Shown one piece after another: positions 11,226 to 47,392 of a stretch of 64,000 nt of DNA (the first letter of the stretch is position 1; each line of letters starts with the position of its first letter). The stretch comes from Methylophaga sp. OBS4 (GTDB lineage Bacteria > Pseudomonadota > Gammaproteobacteria > Nitrosococcales > Methylophagaceae): assembly GCF_026319305.1 (NCBI RefSeq), contig NZ_JAPDMV010000014.1, positions 1 to 64,000 of the forward strand, in the 5' to 3' direction. The notes beneath the pieces are model-generated. The model was not told the DNA's origin, did not search any database, and saw only the letters and a program-made list of their open reading frames with translations. A program made the translations under genes and the position numbers.

Positions 11226-12128
11226 ATGCGAATCTCGACTAATCAGATACAGCAGCAGAGTGTTAATGCCATGCTGCGGCAACAGTCGGAGCTGGTTAAA
11301 ACACAATTACAGATTTCCACCGGTGAGCGTTTGCAATCTCCCTCCGATGATCCGGTGGCGGCCGTCCGGATCCTGGGGCTGGAACGTGATCTTAATTTGA
11401 CAGAACAGTATATGAGCAATGCCGATGTCGCTGACAATAAACTGAGCGTGACGGACGGGGTTTTGACCGGTGCGGTTAATATTCTGCAACGTATCAGGGA
11501 ACTGGCCGTGCAAGGGCTCAATGATACCAATGCCGACGCGCGCGCCGGTATCGCAGCAGAAATCAATCAGCTTAACGAAGCGCTGGTCAGCCTGGCCAAC
11601 ACTACCGATGCCAATGGTGAATTTCTGTTTTCCGGTTATCAGTCCAACACCCAGGCTTTTGACCCGGTGAGTTTTGCTTATAACGGTGACAGCGGACAAC
11701 GTAATGTCCGTGTCGGCAGTGGCTATCTGGTTGAAGTCAGTGAACCTGGCGACCAGGTGTTTGTCACCACCAATCTGGATGGCAGCACCCAGGCTATCTT
11801 CCAGACTATTCAGGATTTCACCACCGCCTTGAACAATAATACGATTGGTACTGCGCCTGACAATGGCGATTTTCTGACCAATATGGATACGGCTTTGGAT
11901 AGTGTATTCTCAGCCAGAACCAAAGTCGGTACCCGCATGAATGCTATTGATCAGCAACGGGCTATCAATGAGGCCAGTACCGCCAGTCTGGAGACGAACC
12001 TGTCGCAGCTCAAAGACCTGGATTACGCTGAAGCGGTATCACGCCTGAGTCAGCAGTCGACCGGTCTGCAGGCGGCGCAACAGGCTTATGTTAGAGTGCA
12101 GGGCTTGTCGTTGTTTAATTTTCTTTAA
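11226..12128 (+). CDS. flgL: Flagellar hook-filament junction protein FlgL (HAP3)
   Basis: Second junction protein, a flagellin-like subunit between FlgK and the filament. The 300-residue product starts MRISTNQIQQQSVNAMLRQQ and carries STGERLQSPSDDPVAAVRI, both typical of FlgL, and the C-terminal DLDYAEAVSRLSQQSTGLQA. I prefer the second of two adjacent ATG codons because it lies five bases after GGGAGA; the first is at 11223. A sigma-28-like promoter for the next gene overlaps its stop codon. Confidence 0.96.
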   Translation: MRISTNQIQQQSVNAMLRQQSELVKTQLQISTGERLQSPSDDPVAAVRILGLERDLNLTEQYMSNADVADNKLSVTDGVLTGAVNILQRIRELAVQGLNDTNADARAGIAAEINQLNEALVSLANTTDANGEFLFSGYQSNTQAFDPVSFAYNGDSGQRNVRVGSGYLVEVSEPGDQVFVTTNLDGSTQAIFQTIQDFTTALNNNTIGTAPDNGDFLTNMDTALDSVFSARTKVGTRMNAIDQQRAINEASTASLETNLSQLKDLDYAEAVSRLSQQSTGLQAAQQAYVRVQGLSLFNFL

Positions 12129-12152
12129 ACTAAATGTATATCTGGCCGAATC
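12126..12152 (+). promoter_or_regulatory. Sigma-28 (FliA)-like promoter for the glycosyltransferase/radical-SAM gene
   Basis: TAAA, exactly 15 bases, then GCCGAATC, compared with the sigma-28 consensus TAAA-N15-GCCGATAA. The -35 element overlaps the flgL stop codon, and the start codon follows 39 bases after the -10. Confidence 0.55.
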
Positions 12153-12190: not shown

Positions 12191-14545
12191 ATGATGTTCA
12201 GTATTATTATTCCAACATTTAACAGTGCTAATGATATTGTCGAGACGATAGAAAGCATAGCGGCTCAACGTTCAGGAAGTGTTGAACTGGAAATTATCGT
12301 TGTTGATGATTGCTCAAACGACAATACTGTTAATTTAGTGCGAGGCCTTCAGATCAAGTATTCCTTTCTGAACGTTTTATGTTCTGATAAAAATAGCGGC
12401 CCCGGAATTGCCAGAAACAAGGGCATACAGGAATCTTCCGGAGACTGGATTTTATTCATAGACAGCGATGACAGACCGGCTCCCAACATGCTGACTGTAT
12501 TGAGTGCTGAAATATCTGCTGTTGGCAGGGCTTGTGATTTACTATGCTTTGATTGGGCCTATTCTGCCAATTCTGCTGCACCTGTTTATGGCTTCATGGG
12601 CCGAGATGATTTGGCGTTGTTGATTTCTAATGATAAAGAAGCGATTATTCAGGCCTATTTATGCAGTCAGGTTGACAGTTCTGTTATTTATTCGGCTTTC
12701 AGAAAATCGCTGATTACCGAAAATGAAATCAGTTTCAGGCCCGGTTTGCATGAAGATGTTGATTTTATGTTTCGTTGTCTGCTTAATGCCAGGCAGGTCA
12801 ACAGTTTGGATAACTGTCTGTATTTCAAGAATAATCGTCCTGAGTCTATCGTCAATACCATCAGCCCCAGACATATTGAAGGATATTTTGGCGCCTTGGC
12901 AGCTATACATCATGAGCTGGCGGCGCACGATAAGTTAGATCGGTACAAAGATGATTTCCTGACCTGCATCATCAACATCGCGGCATCCAGGCTGCTCAGA
13001 CTGTTACGAATGGAAACGGATAACAGCGCTTGGCATATGGCGCTCTTTTTCATGTATCGGAATATCAAGCAGTTGATGGATCAGGCGGAACTTGATTACT
13101 TGCCTGATAACAAGGGGGAGCGTTTTCGAACCAAGTATCAGCAGATATTTGATTTCTTTATGCAAGCCATGCTCAACGTTAACACTCAGGATACGGTGCC
13201 GGTCAGTACCATCAAATCGTTTCTGGAAGAAATTAAAAACAAGAGCTGGAGCTGCTATGACCTGCATCATTCCGTGTTTTTGGCACCAGATGAAGTCCGG
13301 ACCTGCTGCAAAAGGTTTTTCCACGATGGTGAGCTGAAAGGCGATGTCGTGTTGTTGGAGGGTGATAACAGCAATCACTTTACTGAGTTTGACTATGAAG
13401 ACATTATTGCTGCTAAATCCGAACTGTATAAAGAAATAAACCGCGATAATGCGCCAGCCTGCAAGGGCTGTCCTTTTCTGAGCTTTGCAGATTGGGGGCA
13501 GCCGCTGGCGAAAGGGATCGGCTATCTGTCGTTCGAGTACCATTCAGTGTGCAATATGAAATGCAGTTATTGCAGCGCAACCTACTATGGCGGCCAGAAA
13601 GTCACTTATGACATTGAAGGTTTGACTGACTCTATTGTCTCGGCGGGTGCGCTGGATAATAACGAATATATTGTGTGGGGTGGGGGAGAGCCGTTACTGG
13701 ATAAACGTTTTAGCCCGATGCTGCAAAAGATCGCCGAGCATGTCCCTGGTGTGAAACAACGGGTGATTACCAATGCCACACGTTACTCGGACAGTCTGGC
13801 CGAGTTGATGGCAAGCAATCAGGCCTATATTGTCACCAGTATCGATGCAGGTACCGAAGACACGTTTAACGTGGTACGTAAATACAACCGTATGTCAAAG
13901 GTAATGGCCAACCTCAAACGTTATGCAGAGGTAGCCCAGCACAACGTCATTATCAAATATATTTTTCTTCCGGAGAACAAACACATTACTGAGCTTAAGG
14001 CATTTGTGTCGTTAATCCAGGAATACCGGCTGCAGAATTGTAACTTTCAGATAAGTTTTGACTTCAAGGAAGAAATCCTGCCTTTTGATGATTTGAAGAA
14101 TATGGTGTTGCTGTATGGTTTATTGCTAGAGCTTGGCGTAAGACTGGTGTTTTTTGACGATTTAATCATGCAGCGACTGGCGCCATTGGATTCGGTCGAG
14201 CATGAATTGCTCAGAAAAACGTTGGCTGAACATGGGCTCGGAAATACATTGGCCCAGGACATCATTCCAGGCAGGGTGACGGTTTGGGGAACCGGGGCTC
14301 AAACCAGGCTTTTGGTGGATAAAAGCCGATTTTTTGTTGGGAAGGAAATAGCATGTTTTATCGATCCCCGTCCACAGAGGATCGGACAGTCTTTCATGGG
14401 TAAACCTATTGTTTCGCCGTCGGTATTGGCTGAAAATGATCTGCCGGTTGTGATCGCTGCCGTGCAAAGTGCGCCACAGATCTATTCCCAATACATGGAT
14501 CTCGGCTTGCCGGAATCCAGACTTGTAAAAGCGTTGGTTATCTGA
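12191..14545 (+). CDS. Glycosyltransferase family 2 / radical SAM fusion protein
   Basis: A 784-residue protein that joins two enzyme types. Residues 1-230 are a GT-A family 2 glycosyltransferase (SIIIPTFNSANDIVETIESI, VVDDCSNDNTV, and the metal-binding region DSDDRP). Residues about 230-350 are helical. Residues about 420-680 are a radical SAM domain with C454-x3-C458-x2-C461 (CNMKCSYC), a GGGEPLL block, and an upstream C424-x2-C427 pair that could ligate an auxiliary cluster. A C-terminal segment (VWGTGAQTRLLVD) resembles nucleotide-binding domains of sugar-modifying enzymes. It lies between flgL and the flagellin glycan genes, so modification of flagellin or its glycan is likely; the substrate is unknown. 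Confidence 0.85.
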   Translation: MMFSIIIPTFNSANDIVETIESIAAQRSGSVELEIIVVDDCSNDNTVNLVRGLQIKYSFLNVLCSDKNSGPGIARNKGIQESSGDWILFIDSDDRPAPNMLTVLSAEISAVGRACDLLCFDWAYSANSAAPVYGFMGRDDLALLISNDKEAIIQAYLCSQVDSSVIYSAFRKSLITENEISFRPGLHEDVDFMFRCLLNARQVNSLDNCLYFKNNRPESIVNTISPRHIEGYFGALAAIHHELAAHDKLDRYKDDFLTCIINIAASRLLRLLRMETDNSAWHMALFFMYRNIKQLMDQAELDYLPDNKGERFRTKYQQIFDFFMQAMLNVNTQDTVPVSTIKSFLEEIKNKSWSCYDLHHSVFLAPDEVRTCCKRFFHDGELKGDVVLLEGDNSNHFTEFDYEDIIAAKSELYKEINRDNAPACKGCPFLSFADWGQPLAKGIGYLSFEYHSVCNMKCSYCSATYYGGQKVTYDIEGLTDSIVSAGALDNNEYIVWGGGEPLLDKRFSPMLQKIAEHVPGVKQRVITNATRYSDSLAELMASNQAYIVTSIDAGTEDTFNVVRKYNRMSKVMANLKRYAEVAQHNVIIKYIFLPENKHITELKAFVSLIQEYRLQNCNFQISFDFKEEILPFDDLKNMVLLYGLLLELGVRLVFFDDLIMQRLAPLDSVEHELLRKTLAEHGLGNTLAQDIIPGRVTVWGTGAQTRLLVDKSRFFVGKEIACFIDPRPQRIGQSFMGKPIVSPSVLAENDLPVVIAAVQSAPQIYSQYMDLGLPESRLVKALVI

Positions 14546-14571
14546 TTTTTGTCAGACAAATAGGTCGCTTA

Positions 14572-15723
14572 TTAGGTGATGGCCACCCAATTTTTTGTTT
14601 CGGAAGAAGTGTGGACGGCATGTAGCAGTTTCAAACCTTCAAATGCATCCTCAATACCAAATACATATTGATTATCGTGTTTTTGGAATTGCCGGAATTG
14701 AGTCAGCGCTTCAGCTATATCCGAGTAATGATTGGCAAAAGCCTCGATAAAGCCAGCAGGGTGGCCAGCCTTGAAACGATTGTAGCGGGCGCTTTGCGCC
14801 AGTTCAACATCGGCATGAGCGCGGTCCAGTAACAGGCGTTGGCCGGTGTTGTCATGTAGCAGCAGGTTTTCAGGGTCAGCCTGAAACCACTCGGCAGCCC
14901 CTTCAGAACCATAAACTCGTATGCGCAACCCATTACGATGACCGAGAGCAGCCTTGCTGTACCAGATATTACAAATGATGTCATCGCTGTAACGAGCAAT
15001 GCATATTGTGTTGTCAATAACTTGGCGGAAACTGCCAAAACTACTTTCCGTGGCGACAACTTCTATCGGAGCTTCTTCGGTAAGAAAGCTGATTAGATGG
15101 TGAACGTGTACACCCAGGTCTAGGGATAGCGTCGGCAACTCTTTATCCTCTAGCCGCCATGCCTGAGGTATGACCGGTTGCCGGTTTTTATCAAGACGCG
15201 CAAATCCTTCCTGTGGCATTTCAACATGTAGCTGTTCTATTTTCCCTATACGTCCTTGTGATATCAGAGATTTCAGTTCCCTTAGCATGGGATAGCCAGT
15301 GTAGTTATAGGTAACAGATAAAAATCCATTCGTTCGATGGAGTACGGCCTTGATTGCTTCCGCATCGGTAACCGAGTTGGTCAGCGCTTTTTCACAAATC
15401 ACCGGGACGTTGGCTTGTAAACAGGCAATCACATCTGTTGTATGGTTAGGAGTGGGAGTGAGAACCGCAATGGCATCCAGTGCAGACTCGTTGGCAAGCA
15501 GTGTTGATAGTGACGGATAACAATTGCTTTCCGGCAAGCCATATTCATGAGCAGAAGTCAGGTTAATATCCTTATCCATGCTAAAACAACCGGCCACCAA
15601 TTTGAAACGATTATCCATTTCAGCGGCGATTTTATGAACTCGACCAACCGCGGAGTTAGTGCCTCCGCCAATAAAAGCTAAACGTAGTGGAGAAGAAGAT
15701 TTTAAGTTTTGATGGGATGACAA
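14572..15723 (-). CDS. Gfo/Idh/MocA family sugar oxidoreductase
   Basis: An NAD(P)-dependent dehydrogenase-like protein, probably acting on a nucleotide-activated or inositol-like sugar. It has an N-terminal Rossmann motif (LAFIGGGTNSAVGRVH), the family block with ICEKALTNS near residue 120 of the longer reading, and a C-terminal beta-sheet domain with HVHHLISFL. I choose the TTG at 15723 as start because GGAG lies seven bases before it and it begins one base after the preceding stop codon, implying translational coupling. An ATG at 15753 would add ten residues and overlap the upstream gene but has no ribosome site. Last gene of the leftward operon. Confidence 0.8.
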   Translation of the reverse strand: MSSHQNLKSSSPLRLAFIGGGTNSAVGRVHKIAAEMDNRFKLVAGCFSMDKDINLTSAHEYGLPESNCYPSLSTLLANESALDAIAVLTPTPNHTTDVIACLQANVPVICEKALTNSVTDAEAIKAVLHRTNGFLSVTYNYTGYPMLRELKSLISQGRIGKIEQLHVEMPQEGFARLDKNRQPVIPQAWRLEDKELPTLSLDLGVHVHHLISFLTEEAPIEVVATESSFGSFRQVIDNTICIARYSDDIICNIWYSKAALGHRNGLRIRVYGSEGAAEWFQADPENLLLHDNTGQRLLLDRAHADVELAQSARYNRFKAGHPAGFIEAFANHYSDIAEALTQFRQFQKHDNQYVFGIEDAFEGLKLLHAVHTSSETKNWVAIT

Positions 15724-15724
15724 C

Positions 15725-16900
15725 TTAATACTCCATGGATTCAATTTTGACATGGTTTGCCAGCGAGGGTGTGTGTTCCGACATATCCAAACTGCTGGCA
15801 AACTCTGTGAATAAAATTCCCACTTTATCGTACGGAGCCACAGCTAAAATTTCACCACTGTTTTTAAGGGGAATAAAGGCAAGGGTTCGACCAGGAGTAT
15901 GATCCTGCAGTCCGGTGAATATGGCCTCTCTACTGGTTGAAACTGTATGTCGGCCGATGTGTCGGCAGGCTTTTTTTACTACCTGAGCGGGTAGCGCTTC
16001 ACCGAGATAGCTGCGAACCAGCATATCGGTATAGTTCACCTCTTCTGAGAGTTCAGCCATTTTGCCATACAAGTCTCCAGGACAGCGCCGCATACATTCG
16101 ATAATCCAGAATTTATGTTTATTTTTAATGAACTGTGTATGCAGTAATCCGTCAGACAGGTTGAGTGATGTAGCTAATGAACGGATGCTCTTACTGACCT
16201 CATTCTTGACTGACTCTGGGATTGAAGAAGGAATGTTGGAGCAGTTAACCTGATAAGGATGAATGGTACAGAACTCATCTGCAAAAGTTTCATACACAAA
16301 CTGACCTGATTTGATAAAAGCTGAGTGACTGTGCAAACTGCCATCAACAAACTGTTCTACCAACGCTTGGTTCGACCGCGAGTTATTCATTGCATTATTA
16401 AGTGCCGGTTCCAACTGCTGTTCGGATATTACTTTTGTAACGCCCCGGCCACTGAAGCTGTCAGTGGGTTTTACTAATAGGGGATAAGATAATTTCGGAT
16501 CCAGTGAGTGGTTTGCCGAAGTCAGAATCTGACTGTATGGGGCTGGCAAGCCGGAGCGATGGGTAAATTCACGAAAAGCGTGTTTGGTATGAAGTATCAG
16601 CGCTGTTTGGTAATCATCATAACCACAAAAAGTTCTCTGCTCAGCGACCCAGCAGCAGGATAAATAAGCGTAGTCATTACAACTTGGTACAAGATAGTCA
16701 AAATCTTGTTGATCAACGAGTTCCAGCAGAGCATGTTTATTCGAATAATCGATGATAAAACTATCATCAGCAAGCGCATGGCAGGGGTCATGCGGGTACG
16801 CTCCACAGACACTGATATGGAGACCGCGGCAGCGTAAGTGTTGCAGAATAGGTACGGCGCTGAAGCTGCTGCCAACTAATAATACTTTTCCCTCAAACAT
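15725..16900 (-). CDS. ATP-grasp family ligase
   Basis: A 391-residue protein with a pre-ATP-grasp N-terminal part (KVLLVGSSFSAVPILQHL) and an ATP-grasp core. The core includes the phosphate-binding loop YPLLVKPTDSFSGRGVTKV (about residues 140-160) and a metal-binding segment near WIIECMRRCPGDLYG (about 270). ATP-grasp enzymes join a carboxylate to an amine or thiol by way of an acyl phosphate. In this sugar operon it may attach an amino acid or other acid to an amino sugar, but this is inference. It lies between the ketoisomerase gene (3-base gap) and the oxidoreductase gene (coupled). Confidence 0.8.
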   Translation of the reverse strand: MFEGKVLLVGSSFSAVPILQHLRCRGLHISVCGAYPHDPCHALADDSFIIDYSNKHALLELVDQQDFDYLVPSCNDYAYLSCCWVAEQRTFCGYDDYQTALILHTKHAFREFTHRSGLPAPYSQILTSANHSLDPKLSYPLLVKPTDSFSGRGVTKVISEQQLEPALNNAMNNSRSNQALVEQFVDGSLHSHSAFIKSGQFVYETFADEFCTIHPYQVNCSNIPSSIPESVKNEVSKSIRSLATSLNLSDGLLHTQFIKNKHKFWIIECMRRCPGDLYGKMAELSEEVNYTDMLVRSYLGEALPAQVVKKACRHIGRHTVSTSREAIFTGLQDHTPGRTLAFIPLKNSGEILAVAPYDKVGILFTEFASSLDMSEHTPSLANHVKIESMEY

Positions 16901-16903
16901 TAA

Positions 16904-17347
16904 TCAGGCATTCCTTTGTTTTGCCATGGAGAGAAATTGCTCATAATCACGAACATAATCATTTGGATCATATAGCTGATCAGTGAGTATCAGCAGGACA
17001 CAGTCAGCTGAGAAGTCATGCATTTCTCTCCATAACAACCCTGATAGGAATAATCCCTGCTCTGGTGAATCCAGCCAGTGCTCTTGTTTCTCTGAACCAT
17101 CATCAGTGATGAAACGACAAGCTCCTTTCAGGCAGATTACCAGTTGTTGGAGATGTTGATGGGCGTGGAAACCGCGAGCTATGTCTGTTCGAGTATCGTA
17201 TATGTAATAAACCCGCTTGATATTAAATGGTACATTTTTACTAGTCTCTAATGCGATCAGAGAGCCTCTGTCATCACCCATCGGGTCTAGTTGTAACAAA
17301 CTAACCGAACCCATTGGGTCTGGTTGTAACAAATTAACCGAACACAT
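16904..17347 (-). CDS. FdtA/QdtA-type dTDP-sugar 3,4-ketoisomerase (cupin)
   Basis: A 147-residue WxcM/FdtA-like cupin. The family isomerises dTDP-4-keto-6-deoxyglucose to the 3-keto sugar used to make Fuc3N or Qui3N. Motifs: GSLIALE, VYYIYDT, RGFHAHQHLQQL (the catalytic and substrate-binding histidine region) and GLFLSGLLWREMHDF. The N-terminus contains two copies of an 11-residue unit (SVNLLQPDPMG, SVSLLQLDPMG), encoded by a 33-bp tandem repeat. The ATG start is supported by AGGTGG seven bases upstream. First gene of the leftward operon, with its own sigma-54 promoter. Confidence 0.85.
   Translation of the reverse strand: MCSVNLLQPDPMGSVSLLQLDPMGDDRGSLIALETSKNVPFNIKRVYYIYDTRTDIARGFHAHQHLQQLVICLKGACRFITDDGSEKQEHWLDSPEQGLFLSGLLWREMHDFSADCVLLILTDQLYDPNDYVRDYEQFLSMAKQRNA
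17277..17342. repeat. 33-bp tandem duplication in the ketoisomerase N-terminus
   Basis: Copies at 17277-17309 and 17310-17342 differ at only three positions. The duplication keeps the reading frame and doubles an 11-residue segment just before the cupin fold. Confidence 0.95.
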
Positions 17348-17390
17348 TTAGCGCCACCTGTTGCTGTTTAACTGGACTATAGCACACAGC

Positions 17391-17406
17391 AGCAAAATCC
17401 ACGCCA
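17391..17406 (-). promoter_or_regulatory. Sigma-54 promoter for the leftward glycan operon
   Basis: Read on the minus strand: TGGCGT-N5-TTGCT, with GG and GC 10 bases apart. It is 44 bases before the ketoisomerase ATG. Confidence 0.7.
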
Positions 17407-17493
17407 GTCCGGTAATAACTAGTGTTTTCTGATAGTAACGTGGTTAGTGGAAGATTATGAATAGGCGCTTCGTGCATACAAACGCATATTCTG

Positions 17494-17509
17494 TGGCATA
17501 ACATTTGCG
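17494..17509 (+). promoter_or_regulatory. Sigma-54 promoter for the rightward glycan operon
   Basis: TGGCAT-N5-TTGCG, a near-consensus RpoN site, 59 bases before the aminotransferase ATG. An alternative sigma-70 reading uses TTGCGT (17505-17510) and TAATCT (17528-17533) with a 17-base spacer; the two overlap. Confidence 0.7.
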
Positions 17510-17567
17510 TGCGATTGTAAGGATAGATAATCTTGGTTGAAATCAGGCATCACAAATATTTTTGATT

Positions 17568-18710
17568 ATGAAACAGCAAATACAATTACCTTTTACAGAT
17601 ATTTCCGCATGCCATCAGCCTTTCAAGCAGGAGCTTGAAGAGGCTGTTCAGCAGGTTGTTCGGAAAGGTTGGTATGTTCTGGGAGAACAACTTTCTGCTT
17701 TTGAAACAGAGTTTGCTGAGTATTGTGGGGCTGCACATTGTATCGGTGTGGGAAGTGGTTTTGATGCGCTGACTTTAATTCTCCGAGCGCTTGAGATTGG
17801 TTCCGGTGATGAGGTCATCGTGCCGGCAAATACGTTTATTGCAACCTGGTTGTCGGTGCACGCCTGTGGCGCCAATATAGTCCCTGTGGAACCGGAAGCG
17901 AATACGGCTAATATTGACCCGAACAGGATTGAGGCGGCAATTACCCCCAAGACTAGGGCAATAATTGCCGTTCATTTATATGGGCGGGTGGCGCATATGG
18001 GTGCTATCAATGATTTGGCCCGACAGTACGGGTTGTATGTTGTCGAAGATGCAGCGCAGGCACATGGTGCGACCTATGATGGACGTCGGGCCGGAACGTT
18101 CTCCAGTGCCGCGGCATTTAGCTTTTATCCAGGCAAAAATCTGGGAGCATTGGGAGACGGTGGCGCTGTAGTGACTCAGAATAAAGAGATTGCGGAAGCC
18201 GTTCGAAAATTACGTAACTATGGTAGTGAGCATAAATACCATCATGAGCTGTTGGGTGTTAACTCCAGACTTGACGAAATTCAGGCGGCAGCGTTGAGAG
18301 TCAAATTACGTTATCTGGATGAAGGGAATCAGCAACGCAGTTTGCTGGCACAGCATTACCTGGAACAACTTACTCACTCCAATATTGTGCTACCTGCTGC
18401 GGATGATCTATCTCAGTCTGCCTGGCATTTGTTTGTTATCCGGACACAACAGCGAGATGAAATACAGGCGGTACTGAAACGACAAGGAATAGAAGCCCTG
18501 ATTCATTACCCTGTTCCACCACATAAATCGAGAGCCTTTAACGGACTTGGTTTGCAGGGAACCTTCCCTGTGACAGAACAACTGGCCGCAGAAAGTCTCA
18601 GCTTACCGATGTTTCCCTATGCTATGAAACATTACTCTGAAGCCATAGAAGTCATGCTTGATTTGCTCAATACTTTTGCATATTTACCCGCAGTTCATTT
18701 AGACCAATAA
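17568..18710 (+). CDS. DegT/DnrJ/EryC1 sugar aminotransferase (FdtB/QdtB-like)
   Basis: A PLP-dependent aminotransferase that converts a keto sugar nucleotide to an amino sugar. The 380-residue product shows the family landmarks: LPFTDI at the start, [38 protein letters not shown], the PLP-lysine segment [14 protein letters not shown], and the C-terminal IHYPVPPH. These, with the FdtA-like isomerase encoded divergently 220 bases away, suggest a 3-amino-3,6-dideoxyhexose. The ATG at 17568 is preferred to the TTG two codons upstream, though neither has a strong ribosome site. It is followed after nine bases by the large glycosyltransferase gene. Confidence 0.9.
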
Positions 18711-18719
18711 GGATACATC

Positions 18720-21700
18720 ATGACAGAAGCCAGACAGGTGCCCAGAGTCAGTGTCGTCATCGCCAGCTACAATTATCAGCAATACATTGGTGAAGCTATA
18801 GATTCAGTACTGGCTCAGACCTATCAGGACTGGCAACTGGTTATTGTTGATGATGCGTCGACAGATGATTCTCCGAACATTATCAAGCAATATCAACGAC
18901 AGCATCCGTGCAAAATCAAATTTATCAGCCTCAGTGAAAATAGAGGCATCGGTTATGTTGCTAATCTGTGTTACGACAATTGCGAAGGTCAATTGATTGC
19001 CCACTTGGGAGCTGATGATCGTATGGTACCTGATCGTCTTGCACAGCAGGTGGCTTACTTTGACAGTCACCCTGAGGCTGGGGTGGTTTGTAGTGATGTG
19101 TTTGTTATTGATGGTGAAGGCCGGCGGGTTGAAACTAAAACGGTGTTTTCAACCCCGATTACCGATCTCAGAATGCAGTTATTGCAGGGAAACATTATCA
19201 ATTCCCCCTCTGCAACGTTCAGAAAGAATGTCTTCACAGAGGCAGGTAAGCTGAATCCAGTTTTGCAATATGTGCAAGACTTTGAACACTGGTTGAGGGT
19301 TTTGGAAAAGTTTGAAATCGTCCGGCTGGATGAAAAGCTCACTGAATACCGGATTCATGGCAAAAACTTGAGTGTTCAGAAACCGGGACAACACGCGTAT
19401 GCCGGATCATATGAAACGGTGATCAGTGTGTTGAGGGCGATTGATCGCCGTAATCGTATACTTCACTCGGATGTTCAAATTGATCAGGATGCGCTTATTC
19501 AGAAAAAACTTCAGTTGGCTCAGGCGGCGATCGATGTTGAGATGAAATATCTCCAGCAATTCAAGTTCGCCAGTGCACTTGTTTACTTTATTGTGCTGGA
19601 GATATTTGAGCTTAATCCTGACTGTGATGAGGCGACGAAACTGTTACAAGAAGTTTATCGCGCCTTGGGCGATACGGCGCGCGCTGAAGGCAAGAAACCC
19701 TATACGGTTAATGAGTTTAACCAGAATCGACATCAGTCACGCGGCAATATACCAACAACGCCGCTGGATCTGGCTATTGAGACTGCAACAGGGCTTAACC
19801 AGCCGTTGCCGGATGTGGTGGCAAAAATAATCAGCAATACGGCCAACGGTAAAATTAATGCTACCGCCAAAGAGCAGTTGTTGCTGCAAATGGCTGAATA
19901 TCTGATTAAAGCAGGACTAAAGGATGTGGATTATCATGCCGGTAAAGGCTTGGGCCGCAAGCGTCGCAGCGAGCTTAATCGCGCTCAGCTGCTGCTGAAT
20001 GAACAATATGATGCCGGCGAAGAAAGCATGGCTATTTCACAAATCAAGCAGCAGCTCGTTCGCTTGCTTGAACACGATGACTATCAAATCTGGATGCGAA
20101 AGCATGAACTGCGTGAGGTGGATGCCGAAATTCTGGCTGAGCGCATGATGTTGCACTGGCCGCTGCAGCCGGTGATGCATTGTTTTATGTTCGTATTGCC
20201 GGGTGAGGAAAGCCTGCTGGCCGACACGATTGATTCATTGGCCGGTCAGCTGCTTAAGAGCTGGCAACTGACCGTGGTGGCGGCGACACCTGCCCCCGAT
20301 CCCATTTTTGAACAAGCCGATTTTCTTCACTGGCGGACTTTAGATAGCAGTGACGATGCCAACCAGGTGTTGAATGAAGAAATCAGTCGTTACCCTTCAC
20401 ACTGGGTGAGCTTTATTGAGCCGGGTATGCAGTTCAGGGTGCATTCTCTGGCTAAGATCGCGGATTACATTAATTTGTATCCCGGCTGCAGCTTTATTTA
20501 CAGCGATGATGATCAGATTGATCAATTCCATCAACGCAGTCATCCACGATTCAAGCCGGACTTTAATCTTGATTTACTGCGTTCATCTCCCTATATCGGT
20601 AATGGCTGGATGCCGGCGGGTCATTTGATTCAGCTTGGCGGGATACAGAAGCTGGCGGGCGCTGAAAATTATGATTTGGCATTGCGCTGGTATGACAGCT
20701 TTGGAGAGACTGCTTTCTGTCATATTCCAGACGTGCTGATACACAAAAGCAGCCAGGTAGACAGACCGTTTGATGCGATAGCGGGCGAACAGGCCTTGCA
20801 ACAGCATTTTGAGCGCAACGCGGTTGCGGTCAAAATTGAAGCGGGTTATGTCGATAACAGTTACCGGGTGGAATATTTGCATCAGCAACAGCCTAAAGTC
20901 ACGATTATCATTCCGACCAAGGACAAACTGGAGTTTTTTCAGCCCTGTATTGAAACGCTGCTGGAGAAAACCCGCTATCCCGACTATGAGGTGTTGGTCG
21001 TAGATAATCAGAGCACCGATCCGGATACGCTGGCTTATTACCGGCAACTCAGTGCCGAACATGGGGATCGGGTTCGGGTTTTATTCTATGACAAACCCTT
21101 TAACTTTGCGGCCATCAACAACTGGGCGGCAGAGCAGGCGACAGGCGAATTTCTGCTATTGCTGAATAATGATACCGAAATTATTCAAGGCGATTGGCTG
21201 AGCCGGATGATGGTGCATGGTCAGCGTGAGGACGTCGGTATTGTCGGTGCCAGATTATTGTATCCGGGCTCCGGTCGCGTGCAGCATATCGGTGTAATTC
21301 TGGGCATCCGGCAAATTGCCGATCATCACTATTGCAATATGCTGGCACTCAATGATAGCAGTCATATGGAGCGGGCAAGACTGGATCAGAATTTCTCTGC
21401 GGTGACGGCGGCCGTTATGCTGGTCAAGCGCGAGGTTTATCTGCAAGTGGGCGGCATGGATGTGGATCACCTCGCGGTACTGTTTAATGATGTGGATTTC
21501 TGCCTGCGGGTGGGGGAGCGGGGTTACCGTATAGTCTGGACACCTTACGCGATGGTGGTCCATCACGGCAGTACCAGTGTCGGTGAAAAACAGGAAAGCA
21601 GTTTTTATTACGATTGGCAGGGCTACGGCAGAAAAGCGGAACGCACCCGAGCAGAACAACGTTATATGCTGCAACAATGGTTACCGGTTCTGGCGAATGA

Positions 21701-22841
21701 TCCTGCCTATAACCGCAACCTGACGTTACGCAGCCATCATTTCGGTTTGGATCTGAACGGCATGCAAAACTGGGATCTGCATCACCATCTGCGTTTACGT
21801 TGTTTCGGGGTGCCGATTCGGGGAGGCTCGGGTGCGTATCGGATGACCCAGCCTTTTAATGCGCTGGCAAAAGCCGGCCGGGCCTTATGTGAAGTGGGTG
21901 ACCGTCATCTTACTATTACCGAATTGGTGAGACTGCAGCCTGACACAGTGGTATTTCAGAATGCTATCAGTAACAGTGATTTGGAATATCTGCAGATGTA
22001 CCGTGAGTTCAGCCCGGATACCCATATCGTTTTTCTGCTGGATGATTTGTTGCACGATTTGCCGGAGAGGAGTTCGCAGTACAAGAAACTCAAAGCCGCG
22101 TATCGTGATGCCAGAAGCCGATTGCGCAGAGCGCTGAGCTATTGTGACCGGTTGATTGTGTCCACCCAGCCTCTGGCCGAGCTGTGTGAGGATATGATCG
22201 ACGATATCAGTTTGATTCCCAACCGTTTGCAGAAGGCAGTCTGGCTGGGGCTGGAAAGCCAGCGCAATCAAGGCGCAAAACCTCGCGTAGGTTGGGCCGG
22301 TGCACAACAACATCAGGGCGATCTCGATATCATCACCGATGTGGTGAAGGAAACGGCGTCAGAGATCGACTGGATATTTTTCGGAATGTGTCCGGAGGAA
22401 ATCAAACCTTTCATCAAGGAAGAACATGATTTTGTTGATATCGACGACTACCCGCAAAAACTGGCTTCGCTGAACCTTGATTTGGCACTGGCACCGCTGG
22501 AAATGCATGACTTCAACAAAGCCAAGAGTAATCTGCGCCTGCTGGAATATGGCATATTGGGCTGGCCTGTCATTTGTTCAGATATCTTCCCTTACCAGAT
22601 CAATAATGCACCGGTGATACGGGTAAACAACGACAAGGCGGCGTGGTTGGCGGCAATACGGCAAGCACTTGCCGATCCGCTTGCTCTGCAGCAGTCAGGT
22701 AACCGTCTCAAACAGTGGGTCATCCAGCATTATTTACTGGAAGACCATCTGGATGAATGGCTGCAATCGCTTACTGCAATAGGCCTTGACAGCGATTTTA
22801 CACAACTGGAATCGGTATCCGGAGGTGTTGCTGGTCATTAA
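18720..22841 (+). CDS. Multi-domain glycosyltransferase (1373 residues)
   Basis: A giant glycosyltransferase with at least three catalytic-type modules. A GT2 domain spans about residues 8-230 (VSVVIASYNYQQYIGEAIDS, HLGADDRMVPDRL). A second GT2-like domain spans about 485-700 (IYSDDDQID). A third GT2 domain spans about 725-960 (VTIIIPTKDKLEFFQPCIET, LLLNNDTEII, and FNDVDFCLRVGERG). The C-terminal part, about 1025-1373, looks like a GT-B (family 1/4) fold with VGWAGAQQHQGDLDII. It directly precedes the flagellin genes and shares an operon with the sugar aminotransferase. Its role is probably stepwise transfer of the modifying sugars to flagellin; acceptor and sugar order cannot be read from sequence. 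Confidence 0.9.
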   Translation: MTEARQVPRVSVVIASYNYQQYIGEAIDSVLAQTYQDWQLVIVDDASTDDSPNIIKQYQRQHPCKIKFISLSENRGIGYVANLCYDNCEGQLIAHLGADDRMVPDRLAQQVAYFDSHPEAGVVCSDVFVIDGEGRRVETKTVFSTPITDLRMQLLQGNIINSPSATFRKNVFTEAGKLNPVLQYVQDFEHWLRVLEKFEIVRLDEKLTEYRIHGKNLSVQKPGQHAYAGSYETVISVLRAIDRRNRILHSDVQIDQDALIQKKLQLAQAAIDVEMKYLQQFKFASALVYFIVLEIFELNPDCDEATKLLQEVYRALGDTARAEGKKPYTVNEFNQNRHQSRGNIPTTPLDLAIETATGLNQPLPDVVAKIISNTANGKINATAKEQLLLQMAEYLIKAGLKDVDYHAGKGLGRKRRSELNRAQLLLNEQYDAGEESMAISQIKQQLVRLLEHDDYQIWMRKHELREVDAEILAERMMLHWPLQPVMHCFMFVLPGEESLLADTIDSLAGQLLKSWQLTVVAATPAPDPIFEQADFLHWRTLDSSDDANQVLNEEISRYPSHWVSFIEPGMQFRVHSLAKIADYINLYPGCSFIYSDDDQIDQFHQRSHPRFKPDFNLDLLRSSPYIGNGWMPAGHLIQLGGIQKLAGAENYDLALRWYDSFGETAFCHIPDVLIHKSSQVDRPFDAIAGEQALQQHFERNAVAVKIEAGYVDNSYRVEYLHQQQPKVTIIIPTKDKLEFFQPCIETLLEKTRYPDYEVLVVDNQSTDPDTLAYYRQLSAEHGDRVRVLFYDKPFNFAAINNWAAEQATGEFLLLLNNDTEIIQGDWLSRMMVHGQREDVGIVGARLLYPGSGRVQHIGVILGIRQIADHHYCNMLALNDSSHMERARLDQNFSAVTAAVMLVKREVYLQVGGMDVDHLAVLFNDVDFCLRVGERGYRIVWTPYAMVVHHGSTSVGEKQESSFYYDWQGYGRKAERTRAEQRYMLQQWLPVLANDPAYNRNLTLRSHHFGLDLNGMQNWDLHHHLRLRCFGVPIRGGSGAYRMTQPFNALAKAGRALCEVGDRHLTITELVRLQPDTVVFQNAISNSDLEYLQMYREFSPDTHIVFLLDDLLHDLPERSSQYKKLKAAYRDARSRLRRALSYCDRLIVSTQPLAELCEDMIDDISLIPNRLQKAVWLGLESQRNQGAKPRVGWAGAQQHQGDLDIITDVVKETASEIDWIFFGMCPEEIKPFIKEEHDFVDIDDYPQKLASLNLDLALAPLEMHDFNKAKSNLRLLEYGILGWPVICSDIFPYQINNAPVIRVNNDKAAWLAAIRQALADPLALQQSGNRLKQWVIQHYLLEDHLDEWLQSLTAIGLDSDFTQLESVSGGVAGH

Positions 22842-22926: not shown

Positions 22927-23763
22927 ATGGCATTAATTATCAATACGAATATTGCGTCTCTCAATGCACAACGCAATTTGAATACATCGCAAAACGATCT
23001 GAATACATCGTTGCAGCGATTATCATCCGGCCTGCGAATCAATAGTGCCAAGGATGACGCAGCCGGCTTGTTCGTAGCAGGCCAGATGACTCGTGATATT
23101 CGGGGTTCCAATCAGGCCATTCGTAACGCGGCCGATGGTATTTCTCTGGGGCAAACAGCAGAAGGCGCGCTGGGTGAAATCACTAATAATCTGCAACGTA
23201 TTCGCGAAATAGCGGTACAGGCTTCGAATGATACCGTCGGTAACGCTGCTGGCTTGCAGCTGGAAGTTGATCAATTGACCCAGGAAATTTCTCGTATTGT
23301 TGCGACCACTAACTTCAACGGCACGGACTTGTTGAGCGGTGGCGGTAGCATCAACTTCCATGTAGGGGCTTCCGGTGACGTCAGTAACCAGATTACGGTT
23401 ACGCTGGATGATGTCACCAGTATTAATGCCTTTGCTGCTGATTTGACAGCAACGGGTACTATTGATGTCTCCACTACCGCTGCGGCTTCTGCGGCTTTGG
23501 CGAGCTTGAGTACCGATATTGATGCTGTTAATGCGGCCAGAGCAACTTATGGCGCGGTTCAGAACCGGTTCGAGGCGGTGATTTCCAATCTGCAGAACTA
23601 TGCAGAAAACCTGACCGCAGCCCGAAGCCGAATCGAAGATGCAGATTTCGCGGCGGAGACTGCCAAGCTGACGCGTGCCCAGATTCTGCAGCAGGCGGGC
23701 ACAAGCATTCTGGCGCAGGCCAACACCTTGCCTCAGAATGCGTTGTCGCTTCTACAAGGCTAA
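22927..23763 (+). CDS. Flagellin A
   Basis: Filament subunit of 278 residues, short for a flagellin, so it is essentially the conserved D0/D1 core with almost no outer domain. The N-terminus is [20 protein letters not shown] with the [18 protein letters not shown] signature; the C-terminus has [20 protein letters not shown] and [18 protein letters not shown]. The central variable region (about 140-190) is Ala/Thr/Ser-rich and is the likely site of O-glycosylation. It is a close paralogue of the next gene and lies directly after the glycan genes. A GAGGGT site precedes the ATG. Confidence 0.97.
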   Translation: MALIINTNIASLNAQRNLNTSQNDLNTSLQRLSSGLRINSAKDDAAGLFVAGQMTRDIRGSNQAIRNAADGISLGQTAEGALGEITNNLQRIREIAVQASNDTVGNAAGLQLEVDQLTQEISRIVATTNFNGTDLLSGGGSINFHVGASGDVSNQITVTLDDVTSINAFAADLTATGTIDVSTTAAASAALASLSTDIDAVNAARATYGAVQNRFEAVISNLQNYAENLTAARSRIEDADFAAETAKLTRAQILQQAGTSILAQANTLPQNALSLLQG

Positions 23764-23830: not shown

Positions 23831-23857
23831 TAAAGAATATTTTTCTCCTGCCGTTAA
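23831..23857 (+). promoter_or_regulatory. Sigma-28 (FliA) promoter for the second flagellin gene
   Basis: TAAA, 15 bases, then GCCGTTAA, a seven-of-eight match to GCCGATAA at the exact sigma-28 spacing. The long leader of about 80 bases before the ATG could be regulatory. Confidence 0.75.
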
Positions 23858-23945: not shown

Positions 23946-24779
23946 ATGGCTTTAGTTATCAATAGCAATATTGCTTCTTTGAATGCCCAAAGCAATTTGA
24001 ATAAATCCCAGAGTAGTCTGAGCACTTCTTTACAACGTTTGTCATCCGGTCTGCGCATTAACAGCGCCAAAGACGACGCAGCAGGCCTGTTTTTTGCCGG
24101 CCAGCTGACCCGTGATATCCGCGGTTCCAATCAGGCGGTTCGTAATGCCGGTGACGGTATTTCACTGGGCCAGACTGCTGAAGGTGCGCTGGGTCAGGTT
24201 GCTAACAACCTGCAACGTATTCGTGAAATCGCCGTACAGGCATCTAATGATACTGTCGGTGATGCATCCGGTCTGCAACTTGAAGTCGATCAGTTGACCC
24301 AGGAGATTTCCCGTATTGTTGCGACAACCAACTTTAACGGTACCGATCTGTTGAGTGGTGGTGGTACGGTGAACTTCCATGTAGGTGCTTCCGGCGCAGC
24401 TAACAATCAGATCCAGGTTACGCTGGATGATATCACCAGCATCAATGCCTTTGCTGCTGATCTGACAGCAACGGGTACCATCGACGTCACGACTACGGCT
24501 GCCGCTTCTGCTGCGCTGGCGAGTCTGAGTAGTGATCTTGATGATGTCAGCTCAGCACGCGCCACTTACGGTGCGGTTCAAAACCGTTTTGAAGCGGTTA
24601 TCTCTAACCTGCAAAACTCTGTCGAAAACCTGACAGCCGCTCGTAGCCGTATTGAAGATGCGGACTTTGCAGCAGAAACTGCAAATCTGACCCGTGCACA
24701 GATCTTGCAACAGGCTGGTGTGAGCATTCTGGCTCAAGCCAACACCCTGCCTCAAGCAGCCTTGTCATTATTGGGATAA
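23946..24779 (+). CDS. Flagellin B
   Basis: A 277-residue flagellin, mostly identical to the preceding one, with [20 protein letters not shown] at the start and [20 protein letters not shown] near the end. Differences are concentrated around residues 145-200 and at positions such as AGQLTRD versus AGQMTRD. The promoter type differs from its paralogue (sigma-28 rather than sigma-54), so the two may be made at different stages. A TAGGAG site precedes the ATG. A long hairpin follows the gene. Confidence 0.97.
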
Positions 24780-27611: not shown

Positions 27612-29102
27612 ATGAATGCAAACAATGTGTTGGTCGTGGAGGGGGACACCAACCGACGCGAAATGCTATCGACCCTTATCGAATTCATAAACTGCCAGCC
27701 CATTATTATTGAAGACCCACAAATCTGGTCAAACCAGATTGATGATTTGAATAAAGTCGTCATGGCTATTATTGGTGATTGCGGCGGTCACCATATGACC
27801 AGGCAGCTGCTTAGAGAGCTGGTTAATCATGAAGCCCGCGTACCGGTGTTTACGCTGGAGTTGCCGGACTCCGAGGTGCTGGATTTTCCTGGTACCATTG
27901 GTTCTTTGCGTTTTCCTATCAAATATCCGCAATTGAATAATGCCCTGCAGCAGGCGACGATATATCGTGGTCCGGTGGCTAGTAGTGACCTGTCCAGTGG
28001 CAATCTGTTTCGTTCGCTGGTGGGTAACAGCCGTTCAATCAAGATAGTACAGCGCATGATCGATCAGGTGGCTGACTCTGATGCCAATGTACTGATCCTG
28101 GGTGAATCCGGCACCGGAAAAGAAGTGGTTGCCCGTAATCTGCATCACTTTTCTGCCCGACGTGATAAACCTTTTGTACCGGTCAACTGCGGTGCGATCC
28201 CCGGCGAATTACTCGAGAGCGAGCTGTTCGGACACGAGAAAGGGGCCTTTACCGGTGCCATCACCGCACGGAAAGGCCGTTTTGAAATGGCAGAGGGCGG
28301 CACCTTGTTTCTGGATGAAATCGGGGATATGCCTTTGCCGATGCAGGTTAAACTACTGCGTGTATTGCAGGAGCGTACTTTTGAGCGCGTCGGCAGCAAC
28401 AAAACCCAGATCGCCAACGTGCGGGTGATTGCCGCCACGCACCGGAACCTGGAAGATCATATTAATGCCGGGCGTTTTCGTGAAGACTTGTTCTACCGGC
28501 TCAATGTTTTTCCGATAGAGATGCCTGCGCTGCGTGAAAGGCCGGAAGATATCCCGCTGCTTATCAACGAACTCGTTAAACGTATTGAACATGAAAGTCG
28601 TGGCACCGTCAGACTGACTGCTGCGGCCATTACTTCTTTATGCCGTTATCCCTGGCCCGGTAATGTACGTGAACTGGCTAATGTGGTGGAAAGACTGGTG
28701 ATTCTCTATCCTTACGGCATGGTTGATTACGACGACCTGCCGGAAAAATATCAGTTGCAGGGAGAAGATCTGCCCGAGCAGATCACTGCAATGATCAGCG
28801 CGGCCCCACAACCGGTTCTTCATCGTAACCTGCCGCTGCCGCCGGACGCTGTCGATCAGAAGCCGGTCCCGGACGGTAGTGCAAAGCAGCCATCAACCCC
28901 GATTGACGCAGTAGTGGAGGCGTTACCGGAAGAAGGACTGGATTTACGAGAGCATTTGGCTAATCTGGAATACCTGTTGATTAAACAGGCCCTTGAGGAA
29001 TCTGTTGGTGTTGTCGCTCATGCAGCTCAAAAATTGAAGATGCGTCGTACCACGCTGGTGGAAAAAATGCGTAAATATGGCATTCAGCGTGAGGGGGATT
29101 AG
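27612..29102 (+). CDS. fleQ: Flagellar master regulator FleQ (sigma-54 activator)
   Basis: Enhancer-binding AAA+ protein that activates sigma-54 flagellar promoters and in Pseudomonas also controls adhesins in response to c-di-GMP. The 496-residue product has an atypical receiver-like N-terminus (1-115) lacking the usual phosphorylated aspartate. The c-di-GMP motif LFRSLVG is at 132-138, Walker A GESGTGKE near 164-171 with following RN, and GAFTGA at 211-216 for sigma-54 contact. Walker B LFLDEIGD is near 232-239, and a Fis-type helix-turn-helix lies at the C-terminus ([20 protein letters not shown]). Unlike in Pseudomonas, it is separated from fleSR by a repeat-flanked nuclease gene. Confidence 0.95.
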
Positions 29103-29112
29103 GGGCGGTACT

Positions 29113-29380
29113 TCGTCTCCTCGCCAAGCTCAGAGCTCAGCACTAGCAGAAGAAAAATACCCGTTCGCCCTAAGCTCTTCGTCTTTGCTCAGGCCAGGCT
29201 TGTCGAGGGTTATTGTGAAAAGGGGGACATGCTTCGACAAGCTCAGCACGAACGGAGAGACGGCCCGTTCTCCCAGAGCCTGTCGAAGGGTGGTGTGGAA
29301 AGGTGCTCATGCTTCGACAAGCTCAGCAGAACGGAGAGAAGGCCACGTTCGCCCTGAGCCCACAGTCGAAGGGCTAGAAA
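29113..29380. repeat. Cluster of hairpin repeats upstream of the GIY-YIG gene
   Basis: At least two clear copies (29231-29290 and 29311-29373) and a more degenerate one (about 29113-29200). Each has an arm like CTTCGACAAGCTCAGCACGA and a complementary arm like CCCTGAGCCTGTCGAAGGG around GAACGGAGAGA, so each can fold as a long hairpin. This type of repeat is widespread in bacterial intergenic regions. The stretch holds no convincing gene; the frame from 29077 is only its translation. Confidence 0.85.
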
Positions 29381-29417
29381 CCGATAAGCTTAATCAACAT
29401 AAGCCAAGGAAGCGGCA

Positions 29418-29711
29418 ATGGGATTTTGGGTATATATTCTGCAGTGCGCTGACGGAAGCTATTACACGGGGCATACAGATAATCTGGAAAAACACGTTTA
29501 TGAGCATTCGGAAGGAATAATTTCTTCTTGTTACACGTATAAACGGCGGCCGATAACGTTAGTATTTTCTCAGGAAGTTATTAGCCGTGATGAAGCATTG
29601 CAGTTTGAACAGCAAATCAAAGGTTGGAGTAGGAAAAAGAAAGAAGCATTGATGCGCGGGGATTGGGCTGAGATTAGCCGTTTAGCCAGATCTCCAAAAA
29701 GTAGTGTGTAA
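29418..29711 (+). CDS. GIY-YIG domain nuclease (YhbQ/UPF0213-like)
   Basis: A 97-residue single-domain GIY-YIG protein. It has GFWVYILQCADGSYYTGHT, giving the two short strands with YIL and YTG in place of canonical GIY and YIG. A basic region KRRPITLVF and the FEQQIKGWSRKKKEAL motif, with the catalytic glutamate, follow. Such small proteins are putative DNA endonucleases of unknown role. AAGGAAG precedes the ATG. It is flanked on both sides by hairpin repeats and lies between fleQ and fleS, so it looks like a passenger or part of a repeat-associated mobile unit rather than a flagellar gene. Confidence 0.88.
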   Translation: MGFWVYILQCADGSYYTGHTDNLEKHVYEHSEGIISSCYTYKRRPITLVFSQEVISRDEALQFEQQIKGWSRKKKEALMRGDWAEISRLARSPKSSV

Positions 29712-38553: not shown

Positions 38554-39522
38554 CTAGGTGTTTAGTCCCATCCAGTGATGGAGAGGATTAATGTTGAAGA
38601 GTTTTGGCTGCTTATCCCACCAAAACAAGATAGCTTCATAGGGCGTTTTTCTTTTGAGAGCGGAAAGTTTTTTCGCACAGTTATAAGCCATCAGAAAGCT
38701 CTCCAGATGTCTTTTTAGCTGTTCAACGTTTTCATAATAGTAGCGCTTGGTGGTGGCGTCTTTGAGGGTACGGTTCATACGCTCAACTTGTCCGTTGGTC
38801 TGTGGTCGGTAGGGCTGTGTTATTTTGTGGCGAATACCGTGTTTCTGGCAGGCCAGGTCAAAACGGTGACGCTTTGCGGGACCTTTGCCACGTTTGACGA
38901 TGTTCTTTATATAGGTGAATTGTGGACCGTTATCGGTCAGGATAGTGTGAATTTTGAAGGGGCAGGCTTTGATGAGGTTGTCGAGGAAAGCGAGTGCATC
39001 AAGGGTGGTCATACTCTCGAAGACTTCAGCAAAGGCATATTTGGATACGCGACAGATACCGACAAAGAGATAAAGTTTTTGGCTACCGACATGAATGTTC
39101 GAGATGTCCACATGCACAAAACCGATGGGATAGTCCTTGAATTGTTTCTTCGGTGCGGCATCCTGCTCTTCCTTGGGCAGACGTGACAAGCCGTGTCTTT
39201 GCAGACAGCGATGCAAGTTGGAGCGACTCAGTTGTGGAATTTGCTCTTTAAGGACATCGTAACAATCGTCCAGGGGAAGTCGTGTTTGACGTCGAAATTC
39301 GCAAATAATAGCTTCATCCGTTGCGCTCAACACTGAGCGCGACATTTTTGCGCCCATCTTTCGGTCTAAGGCCCCTTCGTCTTTGCGCGCACGCCATTTC
39401 GCCACTGTCTTCGGGTTTATGCCGTAACGCCGGGCTAACACCATCAAGCTCTCTTCACTATTTTGTATTGCTCGACGGGTTGCCTGTGTCGTTTTGGCGC
39501 AAGGGTGTAATACCTGTCCCAT
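38554..39522 (-). CDS. IS481-family transposase
   Basis: DDE transposase of 322 residues. The N-terminus has a helix-turn-helix (LARRYGINPKTVAKWRARKD, about 29-48). The catalytic core shows FVHVDISN (first Asp), ILTDNGPQF (second Asp) and TNGQVERMNRTLK (Glu), the family's rve-type arrangement. No frameshift is visible. Its TAG stop codon is not inside the element: it is completed by the flanking CTAG target bases, so the C-terminus depends on the insertion site. Confidence 0.95.
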   Translation of the reverse strand: MGQVLHPCAKTTQATRRAIQNSEESLMVLARRYGINPKTVAKWRARKDEGALDRKMGAKMSRSVLSATDEAIICEFRRQTRLPLDDCYDVLKEQIPQLSRSNLHRCLQRHGLSRLPKEEQDAAPKKQFKDYPIGFVHVDISNIHVGSQKLYLFVGICRVSKYAFAEVFESMTTLDALAFLDNLIKACPFKIHTILTDNGPQFTYIKNIVKRGKGPAKRHRFDLACQKHGIRHKITQPYRPQTNGQVERMNRTLKDATTKRYYYENVEQLKRHLESFLMAYNCAKKLSALKRKTPYEAILFWWDKQPKLFNINPLHHWMGLNT

Positions 39523-46546: not shown

Positions 46547-47392
46547 GTGACCGGAGCATTGGGGCGTGAGTTTGAGTTTTCTGAAAGACATTTCAATCGC
46601 CTGCGAGCGTTTGTAACGGCCCAGACGGGTATTGTGTTGTCGGATGCTAAGAAAGATATGGTCTATGGCAGGCTGTCGAAACGCATTCGCAAGCAGTTCG
46701 CCGGCAGTTTTGATGCTTTTTGTGATGCGATTGATGCCGGCAACAATGAGGAGCATGAGTTTCTGATCAATGCCATCACCACCAACCTCACTGCCTTTTT
46801 TCGTGAAAAACACCATTTTGACTATCTCAAGCATAAGGTCATTCCTGATTTACTGCGCCATAATCAGGCCAGTAAAAAAATTCGCATTTGGTCTGCAGGT
46901 TGTTCTACCGGCGAAGAACCCTACAGCATAGCGATCTGCCTCAGAGAAGCTGTGCCTGATCTTGAGGACTGGGACATCAAAATACTGGCGACGGATCTTG
47001 ATGCTAATGTCGTTGCTCACGGTAAACAAGGTATTTATGCTGCCGAACGTATCAGCGCCTTGCCGGAAGCGATGAGCAAAAAATGGTTCCGGCATGGCAC
47101 GGGACAGAATAAAGGTCTGGTCAAGGTCAGGCAGAGCCTGAAACAACTGGTGACTTTCAAACAGCTTAATCTGTTGCATTCCTGGCCGATGAAAGGTTGT
47201 TTCGACATCATATTCTGCCGCAATGTGGTGATTTATTTTGATAAGCAAACACAGGCCCGATTATTCAGGCGCTATGCGGACATACTCGTTCCTAATGGTT
47301 ATTTGTTTATCGGCCATTCCGAATCCCTGTACAAAGTCACGGACCGTTTTATATCGCTCGGACACACGATATACAGGCAATTGCCCATATGA
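46547..47392 (+). CDS. cheR: Chemoreceptor methyltransferase CheR
   Basis: S-adenosylmethionine-dependent enzyme that methylates receptor glutamates. The 281-residue product has the CheR core ITTNLTAFFREKHHFDYL, the SAM-binding motif IRIWSAGCSTGEEPYSIAI and FDIIFCRNVVIYFDKQTQ. It starts with GTG after a GGGAG site. The stop codon overlaps the cheD start (ATGA), indicating coupling. Confidence 0.97.
   Translation: MTGALGREFEFSERHFNRLRAFVTAQTGIVLSDAKKDMVYGRLSKRIRKQFAGSFDAFCDAIDAGNNEEHEFLINAITTNLTAFFREKHHFDYLKHKVIPDLLRHNQASKKIRIWSAGCSTGEEPYSIAICLREAVPDLEDWDIKILATDLDANVVAHGKQGIYAAERISALPEAMSKKWFRHGTGQNKGLVKVRQSLKQLVTFKQLNLLHSWPMKGCFDIIFCRNVVIYFDKQTQARLFRRYADILVPNGYLFIGHSESLYKVTDRFISLGHTIYRQLPI

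Follow-up and report, generated by a model that had tools for sequence, protein, structure and literature searches.

What a radical SAM enzyme joined to a glycosyltransferase may be doing among flagellar genes is the question raised by this locus, in which one uninterrupted open reading frame of the window (the whole stretch of 64,000 nucleotides analysed) encodes a protein of 784 residues. The open-frame check, the translation and the Pfam matches bear out the sequence-only reading of a single protein with both a GT2 and a radical SAM part. The gene and its parts are:

12191..14545, forward strand: GT2-radical SAM fusion, whole gene, 784 aa (open frame, Pfam matches, six fused homologues)
12191..13240, forward strand: GT-A fold GT2 catalytic domain and helical region, TarS/TarP/RmlT-like, residues 1-350 (PF00535, fold match)
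13241..13495, forward strand: cysteine block C355-x16-C372-C373 ... C424-x2-C427, residues 351-435 (five invariant cysteines)
13517..14065, forward strand: radical SAM core, residues 443-625, with C454/C458/C461 (13550-13573) and GGGEP 497-501 (PF04055)
14258..14542, forward strand: Rossmann-like (CoA-binding/PglD-N-like) domain, residues 690-784 (motif, weak profile match)

An assembly artefact was rejected as the source of the fusion, since the fusion recurs in six other genomes. The window's assembly holds no second copy of the gene; apart from the gene itself, it gave matches only to a remote radical SAM protein and to the GT2 domain found at 18747. The fusion is real, conserved and rare, and is located where it had been placed at first reading.

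With its GT-A fold, DXD motif and catalytic acidic residues (D91xD93, E188-D189), the N-terminal module is a GT2 of the TarS/TarP-like type. Glycos_transf_2 (PF00535) matches residues 4-113 (E 6e-30, exceeding the curated Pfam cut-off), and D39D40, D91xD93 and H187-E188-D189 are unchanged in the alignment of all seven fused members. In a fold search, the model of residues 1-350 matches residues 1-344 of TarS (5tze_C; Z 22.5, rmsd 4.9, 314 residues aligned), while TarP and RmlT are also among its structural matches. The structure predictions were built from two to three sequence rows and have a mean pLDDT of 53-55 (55 for the low-confidence model compared with TarS), the GT2 half alone, mostly at 65-89, being usable. 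Because the alignment with TarS extends over these 314 residues, the helical region, which had been described as a spacer, most likely belongs in this model to the glycosyltransferase module and is then no mere spacer. These wall teichoic acid enzymes resemble the fusion in both the GT-A domain and the helical region (Z about 22, about 310 residues), whereas their identity to its GT2 module is only about 20%, and TarS and RmlT carry C-terminal domains of their own other than radical SAM. As TarS, TarP and RmlT decorate polymers, the resemblance was counted in favour of a glycan-transfer role for the module.

The second half of the protein matches Radical_SAM (PF04055) at residues 452-598 (E 1.5e-14; 54.9 bits versus a Pfam cut-off of 29.5), with the CX3CX2C motif exactly at C454, C458 and C461, as had been proposed. 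These three cysteines are unchanged in 8/8 members aligned, as are GGGEP 497-501, a GGE-type SAM-binding motif, and many flanking residues, and a loss of the SAM-binding motifs, which would have spoken against a radical SAM enzyme, is thus not seen across the eight homologues. Ahead of the core, C355, C372, C373, C424 and C427 are likewise kept in 8/8 members. The CxxC pair noticed earlier (C424xxC427) is present as part of this five-cysteine invariant set, which is likely to be an auxiliary Fe-S site. The members are only 35-47% identical across the radical SAM half, yet all eight cysteines and GGGEP are invariant. In one pair of homologues from close species, 47 of 2,322 bases differ (dN 0.0074, dS 0.071), and the dN/dS of 0.10 shows purifying selection. 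Against this degree of conservation of the three cluster cysteines, the five further cysteines and GGGEP, and against the purifying selection, it is very improbable that the protein acts as a glycosyltransferase only, with a radical SAM half that has no catalytic activity or serves as a structural part. The active site is illegible in the model of this half owing to its mean pLDDT of 53.

Downstream of the core, the eight-member alignment shows no invariant cysteine, whereas a SPASM domain has seven, and a C-terminal domain of this type is therefore absent. The cysteine layout resembles that of N_Twi_rSAM (NF033640), radical SAM proteins with an N-terminal twitch domain, in that one member, L075, has C-x17-CC ... 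C-x2-C ahead of its CX3CX2C, as compared to C-x16-CC in the block described here; the core matches this family with E 5e-13. However, the score of the fusion, 48.9 bits, is below the curated cut-off of 170, and hhalign comparisons of the cysteine block with the N-terminus of N_Twi_rSAM and with four SPASM domains gave scores inside the range of shuffled controls. As these scores are no better than the controls, and hence lend no support to homology, a twitch origin of the block is not claimed.

At the C-terminus, W699-G700-x-G702 is invariant in the seven fused members and CoA_binding gives a weak Pfam score in one homologue (E 0.008). The same domain closes a 647-aa protein encoded in a Maf-like cluster (L056 10381-10653, genome G783; E 5.9e-11), a cluster which also contains CDP-sugar-type genes. 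The C-terminus had been called nucleotide-binding-like, and the Rossmann-like matches agree with this, albeit weakly, through the CoA_binding score and the lone match in L056.

Searches spanning about 1,200 distinct genomes yielded six further fused homologues, 36-41% identical to the window protein over the full length, and one split relative, giving eight members altogether. The split relative (L004, a gammaproteobacterial MAG) was the sole true relative found by a pattern scan of the contigs of named genomes; a dozen of the other 20 matches were inspected and proved to be plain GT2 or MoaA/SPASM-, QueE- and MiaB-type proteins, with a single domain matched. When the radical SAM halves of the window and L004 proteins were combined into a profile, it retrieved G776 (475 bits), G911 and G1060; a second profile, built from fused proteins, retrieved G1130, G1139 and G1125. 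The two genes in L004 are adjacent and overlap by stop and start: the GT2 ends at 11017, where the radical SAM protein of 442 aa also starts. The two activities thus go together even when unfused, which suggests that they share a pathway but do not have to be on the same polypeptide. The gene is rare and patchily distributed: counting the genomes in which it was found, it occurs in one of 192 relatives, one of 369 genomes in the class, two of 398 in a phylum sample, three of 297 in one family, four of 108 in one genus, one of 39 and one of 22 in two other genera, and one of 63 in the window's order, and it was found in none of the 23 other genomes of the window's genus. Neither relatives in viral contigs or phages nor full-length relatives on plasmids were found, the plasmid matches to the radical SAM half being unrelated radical SAM proteins. 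Several of the assemblies bearing a homologue are complete or nearly so, suggesting that cultured strains may exist.

The position of the window gene between flgK-flgL and two flagellin genes confirms that it follows flgL, as had been noted. It is followed by these genes:

14572..15753, reverse strand: Gfo/Idh/MocA oxidoreductase (PF01408/PF22725)
15725..16900, reverse strand: ATP-grasp ligase, overlapping the oxidoreductase gene (PF13535)
16904..17347, reverse strand: FdtA/WxcM-like dTDP-sugar 3,4-ketoisomerase (PF05523, E 1.4e-47)
17562..18710, forward strand: sugar aminotransferase of the DegT family, an FdtB-like partner for FdtA (PF01041, E 6e-114)
18720..22841, forward strand: double-GT2 protein of 1373 aa, immediately 5' of the flagellins (PF00535 twice, position)
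22927-23763 and 23946-24779, forward strand: two flagellin genes, presumed final target (translations)

The FdtA and DegT pair points, by the established pathway, to a dTDP-3-amino-3,6-dideoxyhexose, and the 1373-aa protein is a candidate flagellin glycosyltransferase; no Maf-like gene was seen in the window locus. From 12191 to 18710 the G+C content is 43-47%, versus 50-51% in the flanking flagellar genes, a contrast as for an acquired glycosylation island. Two further open reading frames of the window were noted in passing: the translation of 29077-29520 resembles a dispersed intergenic repeat (DKLSTNGE-like stretches) and not a gene, and 38554-39522, inside the fli series, is transposase-like with a helix-turn-helix (IS481-like by eye). 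NeuB/PseI (PF03102) has no match in the window's assembly, which is 83.6% complete. In the six homologous loci, PseI-type and Maf-like genes (the latter named by eye) surround the fused gene, which lies 6-12 kb from the flagellins. All seven fused genes are found beside flagellins within sugar-nucleotide clusters, containing pseudaminic acid genes in six cases and FdtA/DegT in the window, and glycosyltransferase and sugar-nucleotide genes adjoin flagellins, as in flagellin glycosylation islands, in the window as well as in these six loci. Adjoining the split pair in L004 are PseF- and PseG-like genes together with genes for an SDR and an AMP-ligase; AMP-ligases belonging to a single cluster are present in 6/8 loci. 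The L004 contig has no flagellin, but flagellins are found on other contigs of the same genome and hence in 8/8 genomes. Homologues mostly outside flagellar or glycan loci, which would have counted against a role in this process, were consequently not encountered, even the split pair residing next to pseudaminic-acid-type genes.

A separate question is how the gene is expressed. It had been credited with a sigma-28-like promoter of its own, for which the candidate is:

12126..12149, forward strand: sigma-28-like core TAAA-N15-GCCGA, weak (exact match to the 9-base core)

This promoter is doubtful. Its TAAA at 12126 is the flgL stop codon, and no match to the full 16-base consensus with at most three mismatches precedes the fusion gene; such matches occur elsewhere in the window, for example at 23831 upstream of the second flagellin. 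Exact cores also lie at 47023 and 51225, and 26 cores with at most one mismatch are present in the window against 13.5 expected. A private promoter is also not conserved in the homologous clusters, because the fused gene there directly follows other glycan genes, overlapping the Gfo gene in G911 and starting 32 bp after an AMP-ligase gene in G1125. Transcripts that continue from flgK-flgL into the gene are no less likely a source of its expression than a sigma-28 promoter of its own.

The activity, substrate and type of reaction we infer from these data as follows. The protein may be a bifunctional enzyme: while the flagellin glycan is assembled, its GT2 part would transfer a sugar, which the radical SAM part would edit. 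To this reading we assign about an even chance. The acceptor of the TarS/TarP-like module would be a glycan that is still growing or is already bound to flagellin, and the sugar is probably an amino-deoxy sugar for which the adjacent sugar-nucleotide genes provide the donor. Hydrogen abstraction by the radical SAM module, together with its putative auxiliary Fe-S site, would take place on this sugar or on a residue next to it; the change made could be an oxidation, an epimerisation, a dehydration or the formation of a C-C/C-S link. The C-terminal domain may bind a nucleotide or nucleotide sugar and help to hold the substrate. Consistent with such sugar editing are the invariance of the GT2 catalytic residues and of the eight cysteines in the radical SAM core and the auxiliary block, the 7/7 location in flagellin loci, the recurrence of the C-terminal domain in a Maf-like locus and the dN/dS of 0.10. 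The nearest radical SAM relatives also include the sugar/nucleotide enzymes MoaA, BlsE (cytosylglucuronate decarboxylase) and AprD4: profile matches of the core are SkfB (E 2.9e-7), MoaA, CteB and BlsE, and fold matches, obtained by Foldseek with a poor model (mean pLDDT 53), are anSME, CteB, BlsE and AprD4. Like the fusion, MoaA, BlsE and AprD4 have a radical SAM core, some with auxiliary clusters, but where present their auxiliary cysteines lie C-terminal of the core, whereas the block of the fusion is N-terminal. BtrN and DesII are further sugar-acting radical SAM enzymes, and to our knowledge no member acting on sugars or nucleotides is fused to a GT2. The accompanying sugar genes vary from locus to locus and so point to no one particular sugar, which counts against sugar editing; with variable sugar genes around it, the conserved fusion may act on something that these glycans share.

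Also against sugar editing, the top radical SAM matches are equally often peptide-modifying enzymes. The radical SAM part might then modify flagellin itself, at a side chain or the backbone near the glycosylation site, with the GT2 glycosylating the same site in a coupled two-step process. The SPASM/twitch-type peptide enzymes SkfB, anSME and CteB at the top of the core's matches, the flagellins in 8/8 genomes and the oxygen-sensitive Fe-S chemistry known to act on flagellin through FliB (PMC8598068) are in line with this, but no peptide-recognition (RRE-like) domain was noticed in the protein, the remainder of which is a glycosyltransferase and a nucleotide-binding-like domain, and the pair in L004 lies among pseudaminic acid genes on a contig without flagellin; we therefore consider it unlikely. 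FliB, a flagellin lysine methyltransferase which needs a [4Fe-4S] cluster and has the motif CX4CX3CC (PMC8598068), is the nearest precedent for Fe-S-dependent flagellin modification. It is unrelated to the fusion. It has neither a recognised radical SAM domain nor a glycosyltransferase domain and methylates lysine, and its motif is absent from the fusion protein, where the spacings are C-x16-CC and CX3CX2C.

The radical SAM part could instead build the donor, by editing a nucleotide sugar in the cytoplasm, the fused GT2 using the product and the Gfo/Idh/MocA protein possibly finishing it. DesII, BtrN and AprD4 perform editing of this kind by deamination, dehydrogenation or dehydration, and AprD4/AprD3 is an example of the pairing of a radical SAM enzyme with a reductase. 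An orthologue of the oxidoreductase (44-50% identity) is present in 7/7 fused-gene loci and adjoins the fused gene in four, which, together with the Rossmann-like C-terminal domain and the structural matches to AprD4 and BlsE, favours this route. However, the Gfo gene is also carried by DNA that lacks a radical SAM gene nearby, and in G776 and G1060 it sits within the pse cluster about 10 kb from the fused gene, so that donor editing likewise appears rather improbable. The ATP-grasp gene is found in only three of the fused loci (window, G776 and G911). On a Rhizobium plasmid (L084), overlapping ATP-grasp and Gfo genes (45-50% identical, Gfo 50%) lie next to DegT, with no radical SAM gene and no annotated flagellar gene within 9 kb of the trio. 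This indicates that ATP-grasp/Gfo/DegT is a portable module in its own right, and weakens a pairing of radical SAM with the Gfo reductase.

Returning to editing of the transferred sugar, known flagellin glycosylation systems provide parallels for the cluster and not for the fusion. In Shewanella oneidensis, flagellin carries a 274 Da nonulosonic acid extended by units of 236-264 Da, and the sfmABCDE operon encodes PseI-like, acyl-ACP-reductase-like, methyltransferase and ATP-grasp proteins (PMC3765264). This pse/maf-type island is similarly a flagellin-linked cluster with PseI-like and ATP-grasp genes; however, no radical SAM enzyme or GT2-radical SAM fusion is reported in it (PMC3765264), and the window's assembly lacks the NeuB/PseI that sfm has. 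The viosamine island of Pseudomonas syringae likewise modifies flagellin by dTDP-amino-sugar genes and glycosyltransferases, although its amino-sugar genes differ and its abstract names no radical SAM enzyme (PMC3927599). The term 'radical SAM' has zero occurrences in island surveys of Enterobacteriaceae (PMC4875605), Geobacillus (PMC5109656), Aeromonas (PMC7874193) and Clostridium (PMC13317340). FliB aside, searches of open-access papers yielded nothing relevant on radical SAM enzymes in a flagellin-glycosylation locus or fused to a glycosyltransferase, in keeping with the initial remark that such chemistry is not established there.

The catalogued enzymes of flagellin glycans are, as far as we know, transferases, sugar-nucleotide enzymes, methyltransferases and ligases, and these glycans influence filament assembly, motility and recognition. 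It is possible, though we advance this only tentatively, that the fusion represents a new bifunctional class in which the glycosyltransferase attaches a sugar and the fused radical SAM part remodels this sugar once it is on the flagellin-linked glycan. The resulting structure, such as a residue that is C-C or C-S linked, epimerised or deoxygenated, would lie beyond the ordinary sugar-nucleotide pathways. That several flagellin clusters encode a radical SAM enzyme tethered to a glycosyltransferase points to radical chemistry when flagellar glycans are assembled, and the single gene with its named cysteines offers a handle for testing it.
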